NCBI GenBank assembly: GCA_902760645.1
Contig: CACWHC010000002.1
Span: forward strand, 1 to 64,000
Direction: 5' to 3'
DNA length: 64,000 bases
Source: an uncultured bacterium
Lineage (GTDB): Bacteria; Cyanobacteriota; Vampirovibrionia; Gastranaerophilales; Gastranaerophilaceae
Of this stretch, positions 58,645 to 61,794 are shown piece after piece; within the stretch, counting starts at the first letter, position 1; each line of letters opens with the position of its first letter. The position numbers and the translations under genes were made by a program. The notes below the pieces were generated by a model. That model was not told the DNA's origin and ran no database searches. It was given only the letters and a program-made list of their open reading frames with translations.

Positions 58645-59424
58645 ATGCCAACAGCATCAATGATTGAACTTTTGGAAGCAGGTGTACATTTCGGTCACCA
58701 AACACAAAGATGGAACCCTAAAATGAAACCGTATATTTACGGTGCAAGAAACGGTATTTATGTAATTGATTTGCGTAAAACTACTGATTTATTGGATGAA
58801 GCTTATGCAATTGTAAGAGAATTTGCAGCAAGAAATAAAAACATCCTTTTTGTAGGTACTAAAAAACAAGCAGCTGAAGTTGTTGCCGAAGAAGCAAAAA
58901 GAGCAGGTGCATACTATATTAACAGAAGATGGTTAGGCGGTATGCTTACTAACTTTGAAACTATCAGAGGCAGAGTTAATAAATTAAAAGAATTGGAAGA
59001 ATTTATGAGCTCCGGTCATGCTGAAAAATTACCTAAAAAAGAAATTGCACAATTAAACAGACAATTAGGTAAATTAAGCAAAACTTTAGGCGGCATCAAG
59101 GATATGAGAGGTCTTCCTGATTTGATTTTCATTATTGATCAGGGTAAAGAACTTATTGCTATTCAGGAAGCTAATAAACTTGGTATTCCTGTTGTATGTT
59201 TAGCTGATACAAATGCCGATCCGGATGGAATTAATTACATCATTCCGGGTAATGATGATGCTATTCGTTCTATTAAATTGATTACTTCAAAATTGGCAGA
59301 TGCAGTTTTGGAAGGTAAACAATTAAGAGAAAACAATGCTAATCAAAAAGCAAAGATTGAAGAAATCAAAGCTGAAGATGCAGGAGTAGAAGCTCCGGCT
59401 GAAGAAGCTAAAGTTGAAGAATAA
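58645..59424 (+). CDS. rpsB: 30S ribosomal protein S2
   Basis: A 259-residue S2 of the small ribosomal subunit. It has the N-terminal [61 protein letters not shown] and [13 protein letters not shown] Glu/Ala-rich tail follows. tsf lies 31 bp downstream, the usual bacterial order. Confidence 0.98.
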
Positions 59425-59455
59425 TTATTCTTAAATAAATAAGGAGAAAATTTAA

Positions 59456-60673: not shown

Positions 60674-61441
60674 TTACCAAGGATAATCAGGTTTTATTTC
60701 CCATCCGTCGAGAACGATTAAAGCAGCGCAATATCCTCCTAATGGATAAGTTGAAGACTCTTTTTTACATTTATAGCGTACGTCATTGGATTCCATATTA
60801 CTACCGGTTATAATATCTTCTCTTGTATAATATACTGTTTCTGTGGAGTTAGAAATTCCCATAGGTTTAATCTTAGCACCCGGCATTCCCCATGAAGCTC
60901 CGAAAGCAAAAATATCTTTACCAATTTGGTTAGGTCTGTTTTTAGGACCATTAACATCCACAACGTACCACATTCCATATCCAGTGCCATGCAACCAATA
61001 ATAGACTGAATAACCAGATGCAGTAATAAAGGAAATTGCAGACTCAGAAGCATTTGTGAAAACTAGACCATTAATTCTTTGATTGTTAAGATTTTTGATA
61101 TCATCTGGCCAACATTCATTGGATGAAGGAATACAGATTTTTAATGTTTTTATATTTGGAAACAGATATTTTTCACCAAAATATTTAGCTTTTTCAAGAT
61201 TATTATTGTTAAATTGTTCTTTCGCAAGGGGAGGCCAAGTATCAAGTGTTCCGTTTTCAACCTGAGCCATTTGCATAGCCTGAGCATATTCGGAAAATGC
61301 TTTTTTAAGTTGTGATATTACCTGTTTCTTTTGATAATTCCCGATTAACGTTGGCAATGTCATGGCGGCAACGACACCAATAATACCTAAAGTAATCAAT
61401 ACCTCTGCCAGAGTAAATGCTTTAACATCCTTTTTGCCCAT
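60674..61441 (-). CDS. Type IV prepilin-like protein
   Basis: A 255-residue prepilin. A short basic leader ending KA precedes FTLAEVLITLGIIGVVAAMT, with the conserved Glu5 and assembly helix, then NYQKKQVISQLKKAFSEYAQ. The globular part has cysteines in CIPSSNECW and near the C-terminus (CKKESS, GYCAAL). It is larger than the prepilin at 34890 and has an unrelated head. GAGGT precedes the ATG. It diverges from a small DNA-binding protein gene across a palindromic promoter. Confidence 0.85.
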   Translation of the reverse strand: MGKKDVKAFTLAEVLITLGIIGVVAAMTLPTLIGNYQKKQVISQLKKAFSEYAQAMQMAQVENGTLDTWPPLAKEQFNNNNLEKAKYFGEKYLFPNIKTLKICIPSSNECWPDDIKNLNNQRINGLVFTNASESAISFITASGYSVYYWLHGTGYGMWYVVDVNGPKNRPNQIGKDIFAFGASWGMPGAKIKPMGISNSTETVYYTREDIITGSNMESNDVRYKCKKESSTYPLGGYCAALIVLDGWEIKPDYPW

Positions 61442-61487
61442 GTAATCGGTTACCTCAATAATGTAAATTCTCGTAACGTTTATTATT

Positions 61488-61517
61488 ATTATAAAGGAAT
61501 AGTTATTCCTATATAAT
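61488..61517. promoter_or_regulatory. 30-bp palindromic divergent promoter/operator
   Basis: The 16-bp inverted repeat AGGAATAGTTATTCCT (61495-61510) is flanked one base away on each side by outward-facing TATAAT boxes (minus 61488-61493, plus 61512-61517). The whole 30 bp is symmetrical except for the centre and one outer pair. It would control the prepilin gene and the small HTH gene together. Confidence 0.6.
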
Positions 61518-61575
61518 AATACATTTTACCATATTGCAATAAGTATGTCAATATGATTATAAAAGAGGACTGATT

Positions 61576-61794
61576 ATGAGTGTGAGAACAGACATCAAAA
61601 CATTACTTGCAGAAAATGATGTTTCAATAACAAAACTTGCGGAAATGGTTTCGGAAAAGACCGGTAAGCACTATTCGCAGTCAAATATTTCGCAAAAGCT
61701 TATGCGAAACACACTCAAATATGAAGAAGCAAAACTAATCGGTGAATTACTCGGTTATGAGTTAAAATTTATAAGAGTTAAATCTTATTTGTAG
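61576..61794 (+). CDS. Small helix-turn-helix-like protein
   Basis: A 72-residue all-helical protein with an N-terminal HTH pattern: TDIKTLLAENDVSITKLAEM, SNISQKLMRNTLKYEEAKLI, GELLGYELKF. This resembles the compact XRE-type domains of phage-like regulators. The ribosome site is AGAGGA. It starts about 60 bp from a palindrome suited to a dimeric DNA-binding protein, which may be its own operator. Confidence 0.65.
   Translation: MSVRTDIKTLLAENDVSITKLAEMVSEKTGKHYSQSNISQKLMRNTLKYEEAKLIGELLGYELKFIRVKSYL

Follow-up and report, generated by a model that had tools for sequence, protein, structure and literature searches.

In a 64,000-nucleotide stretch of an uncultured Gastranaerophilaceae genome (the window), a small helix-turn-helix (HTH) gene and a prepilin gene diverge from a near-perfect palindrome, which raises the question of what binds this element and which of the two genes it controls. 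The first-pass annotation described an element that fills the space between two outward TATAAT boxes and forms with them a near-perfect 30-bp palindrome, at which a dimer of the HTH protein would block both promoters at once. The palindrome and its flanking boxes were recovered: the core AGGAATAGTTATTCCT occupies 61495-61510 and is separated by a single base from the TATAAT on its right (61512-61517, plus strand) and by a single base from that on its left (61493-61488, minus strand). The symmetry is longer than described and reaches 38 bp, in which two arms of 18 nt, complementary at 17 of 18 positions, are separated by a gap of 2 nt (Table 1). Absence of the palindrome from close relatives that keep both genes had been named as grounds for refutation, and the opposite was observed; in G006, a genome of the same genus that keeps both genes and whose HTH protein is 97% identical, two base differences result in a perfect 38-bp palindrome. 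A second small palindrome, AAGAATAATTATTCTT, was noted at 59417-59432 of the window, between rpsB and tsf.

The best promoter of the region points to the prepilin gene (TTGACA-N17-TAAAAT with an extended -10, 61551-61523, 11/12 matches). In 30 orthologs both boxes of this promoter and the right half of the palindrome are conserved, with the consensus TTCCTnTATAaTaA...AtTTTAc...ATGTCAATAT. From the spacing, transcription of the prepilin gene is predicted to start near 61516; relative to this start, the palindrome would run from about -5 to +33. The TATAAT on the left (61493-61488), which had been taken for the prepilin -10, was set aside, since it sits in the less conserved arm and the TTGACA-N17-TAAAAT promoter is far better and conserved. 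With the promoter at 61551-61523, the palindrome overlies the predicted prepilin start and does not lie between back-to-back -10 boxes, as originally proposed.

For the HTH gene two candidate -10 boxes were found, and autoregulation by direct overlap depends on which of them (61512-61517 or 61552-61557) serves. The conservation of TATAnT at the former may equally be conservation of the operator. Many HTH paralogs have a TATAAT a few bases ahead of the HTH start codon; in L002, L077, L177 and other paralogs it is located approximately 6-9 nt before this codon, which suggests leaderless HTH mRNAs.

Table 1. Positions of the genes, predicted promoter elements and candidate operator sites within the window
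Feature	Positions	Strand	Basis and remarks
Prepilin, 255 aa, proposed controlled cargo	60674-61441	-	PF07963 and TIGR02532
Candidate 38-bp operator palindrome, TATTATTATAAAGGAATA-GT-TATTCCTATATAATAATA	61484-61521	.	Inverted repeat, shuffles, occurrences beside HTH ortholog
O2, distal 18-bp half operator (candidate)	61484-61501	.	About +16 to +33 of the predicted prepilin transcript; less conserved in distant orthologs
O1, promoter-proximal 18-bp half operator (candidate)	61504-61521	.	Pseudo-palindrome 7/9; about -5 to +13 of the predicted prepilin transcript; TTCCTnTATAaTaA conserved in 30 orthologs
TATAAT, candidate -10 of HTH gene, within O1	61512-61517	+	Sequence; TATAnT in most orthologs
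TAAAAT, predicted -10 of prepilin promoter	61523-61528	-	TG one base upstream (extended -10); ATTTTAC on plus strand conserved
TTGACA, predicted -35 of prepilin promoter	61546-61551	-	Conserved in orthologs as ATGTCAATAT on plus strand
TATGAT, alternative candidate -10 of HTH gene	61552-61557	+	TATAnT there in most orthologs
72-aa HTH protein, Cro/C1-type fold, predicted DNA-binding autorepressor	61576-61794	+	AF2 model; DUF6471 / HTH_26 among family members

The assignment of the plus-strand product as a 72-residue HTH-like protein was confirmed by its AF2 model (pLDDT 93.8), which consists of four helices (residues 3-13, 18-29, 35-43 and 49-58), the third being the predicted recognition helix, and which leaves no room for a sensor domain. 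Many Cro/C1-type proteins were among the Foldseek matches of the model, with E-values of 0.001 or weaker. By sequence, the protein itself stays below the cut-offs of curated models (14.9 bits against 26.8 for DUF6471; 13 bits against 31.5 for a transposase HTH), and 39 of 74 family members match DUF6471 and 17 of 74 HTH_26, with E-values up to 0.1 (best 1.5e-7 and 4.5e-7); some relatives match HTH_26 or HTH_3. No paper mentioning DUF6471 by name was found in the literature searched. The repressor had been called phage-like, which holds for its Cro/C1-type fold and not for its surroundings: a scan of viral contigs for close relatives returned none of the 72-aa protein, and the neighbours are not phage genes. 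A prophage remnant was rejected for the same two reasons.

The minus-strand gene encodes a prepilin, as annotated, with an N-terminal cleavage/methylation motif that scores 24.7 bits against Pfam N_methyl (PF07963, cut-off 21.2) and 19.5 bits against TIGR02532 (cut-off 16.3). Its structural model is of fair confidence (pLDDT 86.6), and comparison of the fold with solved structures gave no significant match apart from the pilin helix at the N-terminus, which the sequence already shows. The genome encodes 54 prepilins in 1.96 Mb and a prepilin peptidase (PF06750, E 1e-35, G000:C11). The neighbours of the HTH gene are tsf, the prepilin gene, a gene for a 110-aa protein and an amylase-like gene. 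A toxin-antitoxin or defence function was rejected, as neither the window HTH protein nor the prepilin had a PADLOC match. Ten copies of a 29-bp repeat, GCTACGCACGTAGCTCAGTCTGCAAAGCC, were observed in the same genome, each within a prepilin leader (e.g., C1:71533-71561 and C4:96164-96192), and the repeat yields a doubled leader, GFTLAEGATHVAQSAKP...AAFTLAEV; prepilins may be exchanged by recombination at this repeat. Many own-genome prepilins (L137, L140, L150, L154, L155 and others) are preceded by open frames that read GGGVRTSRSKGLQ... or ...CHPELVSGS..., apparently repeats before or inside the leader.

Occurrences of the palindrome were then compared with the places of the HTH genes. The exact 16-bp core is present as a single copy in the 1.96-Mb genome. 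A 36-bp palindrome pattern, searched with up to three mismatches in 383 family genomes, gave 11 matches, all of them just upstream of an ortholog of the 72-aa HTH gene, whereas the reversed control pattern gave none.

Variation among 34 orthologs showed which bases the protein may read. Residue 35, at the start of the predicted recognition helix, is Gln in 19 of them and Arg in 15. Next to a Gln35 protein the operator carries A at 61505 and T at 61520 in all 19 cases, and next to an Arg35 protein it carries G and C in all 15. The two positions are symmetric about the centre of the right half operator. Gln-adenine and Arg-guanine are classical contacts. This was the top-ranked residue-base association, and the only perfect ones among appreciably variable column pairs; three other residue-operator pairs score 1.0 merely because one sequence differs. 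A poorly resolved tree built without residue 35 requires some three changes (2-3 across bootstraps), so the joint changes, approximately two or three, amount to few independent events. The 34/34 match is what would be expected of a dyad-symmetric operator read by the recognition helix.

The symmetry is placed at a fixed distance from the prepilin promoter. In 18 of 23 strong prepilin-linked palindromes the dyad lies 41 or 43 nt from the prepilin TTGACA, and when the symmetry is averaged across every locus, maxima appear at 33, 41 and 43 nt. The arms have a symmetry of their own. In 22 strong palindromes from groups other than that of the window, its centre is offset from the main dyad by exactly 10 bp (5.7 of 9 pairs versus 3.6 expected; none of 2000 nulls reached this value), and so it is in the window's own group. 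Sub-dyads 10 bp on either side of the main dyad point to two dimer sites 20 bp apart, that is, two helix turns, and two dimers would be expected on the 38-bp palindrome. The single dimer first envisaged thus gives way to two probable dimer sites, and the other part of that proposal is supported, as the position fits repression of the prepilin gene and probably of the HTH gene too. The left half site of distant orthologs is degenerate; an arrangement with two dimers may therefore not apply to every locus.

The locus belongs to a multicopy family. In this genome the 72-aa HTH gene is represented by six paralogs, each of them diverging from a prepilin. Of 97 sampled Gastranaerophilales genomes, 85 have members of the family, with copy numbers from 0 to 21 over the sample, and in other genera the cassette sits at other chromosomal places. 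A prepilin recognised by pattern is divergently upstream at 69 of 153 different HTH loci, a few more having been missed by the pattern, and wherever a prepilin adjoins an HTH gene it is divergent, with one locus having an additional downstream prepilin. At the same place, the palindromes of other HTH groups are unrelated and reach 36/36, and paralogous pairs within one genome likewise have different palindromes there. Among the 69 prepilin-linked intergenic regions, 28 beat all 30 shuffles; the remainder have an operator that is short or degenerate, or that follows another arrangement. None of 27 HTH-less prepilins checked in this genome had a comparable palindrome after TTGACA. At L085 and L092, two HTH paralogs were observed in tandem at one locus.

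The similarity of the HTH proteins was then compared with that of their operators and cargos. Over 53 HTH-prepilin pairs, HTH identity correlated with operator identity (r 0.62; Mantel, 0/1000 permutations as high) but with the identity of the prepilin C-terminal part at an r of only 0.18. By rank correlation over all HTH pairs the values were 0.18 for the operator and 0.24 for the control region, and the signal sits in pairs above approximately 55% HTH identity. Between this genome and G006, with their nearly identical HTH proteins, the flanking tsf region is 98% identical at the DNA level, whereas the prepilin C-terminal parts are only about 24% identical. The window prepilin is most like an HTH-less paralog of its own genome (74%) and also resembles prepilins beside quite different HTH proteins (L063 and L069; 42-44%). 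In some orthologs a HAD-like protein, not a prepilin, stands behind the same operator type. The HTH gene and its operator are, as judged from these comparisons, a unit inherited together, behind which the cargo, usually a prepilin, changes. Together with the occurrence of the palindrome solely beside orthologs and the co-variation at residue 35, the tracking of HTH by operator supports the 72-aa protein as the binder, as first suggested.

Cargos of other kinds were also observed. At L114, L118, L119, L124, L161 and L163 a HAD-like protein of 111-115 aa (MRYKPTILIDLDGVLNEYKG...) takes the prepilin's place with the same operator type, and at L027 and L028 (same genus; G005 and G002) HTH paralogs with their own 38-bp palindrome, ATGATAAATTATTCTCGTATACGAGAATAATTTATCAT, diverge from a glycosyltransferase-like gene, so the cargo is not limited to prepilins.

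In summary, the 72-aa protein is quite probably a local Cro/C1-type repressor acting on the prepilin start, and probably on its own promoter too, within one cassette of the multicopy Gastranaerophilales family. We infer from the computed patterns that two dimers of the 72-aa protein would occupy the 38-bp palindrome next to each other, one on each 18-bp pseudo-palindrome, and that the promoter-proximal dimer, seated over the prepilin start (about -5 to +13), would block prepilin transcription. Since the operator overlaps a candidate -10 of the HTH gene, the protein probably also limits its own synthesis. It is too small to contain a sensor, and relief of repression could thus come from its own concentration, a partner protein or chance fluctuation. 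Across the family, the operator would differ in sequence from one HTH protein to the next while keeping its place in the cargo promoter.

Repression was weighed against an activating role, in which the HTH protein binds the palindrome and either activates the prepilin gene or activates it at low dose and represses it at high dose, as restriction-modification (R-M) controllers do. C.Esp1396I, a fold relative, combines the two actions at a double site of 35 bp (PMC4041747). This is an unlikely account of the present locus, because the prepilin -35 and -10 are near consensus, which makes an activator dispensable, and the operator is downstream of the prepilin -10, a repressor's place; a position over the start point speaks for repression rather than activation.

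It is highly improbable that the palindrome works as RNA, namely as a 5' hairpin that stabilises or attenuates the prepilin mRNA, even though the predicted transcript begins with the hairpin UUAUAUAGGAAUAACUAUUCCUUUAUAA and its leader has a folding energy of -11.6 kcal/mol (z -1.9), which 10 of 200 shuffles matched. In distant orthologs the promoter-proximal sequence is kept without its complementarity to the opposite arm, several of them pairing at 3-5 of 19 positions, and no Rfam match was found, for which reasons this reading was rejected. Moreover, the symmetry extends upstream of the predicted prepilin start, two operator bases match HTH residue 35, and the operator is constant while cargos change.

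We give still less credence to a different, global regulator binding the palindrome, with the HTH gene as a mere neighbour. Relatives of the 16-bp core with up to two mismatches are indeed 2.3 times commoner in the genome than those of the reversed pattern (40 versus 17). However, the exact core is confined to this locus in the genome and the full palindrome occurs in the 383 genomes only beside orthologs of this HTH gene, on which grounds a global regulon was rejected; in addition, paralogous pairs of one genome differ in palindrome at the same place, and the operator follows the HTH protein both in overall identity (r 0.62) and at residue 35 (34/34). Chance symmetry can practically be dismissed, although AT-rich intergenic DNA yields many short palindromes, because the observed score of 15 exceeds the best palindrome score of every one of 4000 shuffles that preserved the dinucleotides of the 134-bp intergenic stretch (shuffle mean 6.4, maximum 14) and the element is conserved in orthologs; this reading had already been refuted.

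Local repression by HTH proteins offers a concrete hypothesis for how this gut lineage, which is uncultured and has 54 prepilin genes in 2 Mb, controls the choice of pilins that it makes. As a tentative extension, which we consider possible, the independent repressor-operator pairs may be exchangeable sockets, several per cell, each silencing one hypervariable surface prepilin while recombination swaps prepilins behind the fixed unit. If so, a cell in the gut could display or conceal each pilin independently of the others. The pairs also form a natural series for reading a specificity code, with Gln35 beside A:T and Arg35 beside G:C. No description of a family of private HTH/operator switches for pilins was found in the open papers searched, and the family appears to be previously undescribed.

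Several known systems resemble this locus in part. The HigA and HipB antitoxins are small HTH proteins of similar fold (HigA2 and HipB were among the fold matches) that bind palindromes and repress the adjoining gene. An antitoxin and its toxin are usually in one operon, whereas the partner here is a divergent prepilin (6/6 own-genome pairs) or a HAD-like protein, with no sign of a toxin. Cro/C1-type (XRE) repressors of phages and islands, such as Stl and TP901-1 CI, share the fold, the divergent promoters with a common operator and the expected autoregulation; unlike them, the 72-aa protein has no surrounding phage genes, no close viral relative and no second signal-sensing domain, and its proposed target is a pilin gene.

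The R-M controller proteins, exemplified by C.Esp1396I, are also Cro/C1-type HTH proteins of approximately 70-80 aa with two adjacent dimer sites, comparable to the predicted sub-dyads 10 bp from the main dyad. In C.Esp1396I, the double operator spans 35 bp and holds two adjoining dimers, the centre of each being a TATA, and an additional site named OM, which covers a start point, serves to repress a second gene (PMC3758141, PMC4041747). C.Esp1396I was among the fold matches of the 72-aa model, at a TM of about 0.65 with a weak E-value. The window protein differs in having no adjacent R-M genes, no GACT boxes and no significant sequence similarity, and in being encoded divergently from its target, not in an operon with it, with a prepilin as cargo; as R-M genes are not adjacent, it is not a member of that class, and the likeness is one of mechanism only. 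Local HTH repressors are common. In Gastranaerophilales, one ancestor would have given rise to many of them within a single order; each has an operator of its own whose position is fixed, and a variable pilin gene is the most frequent cargo.
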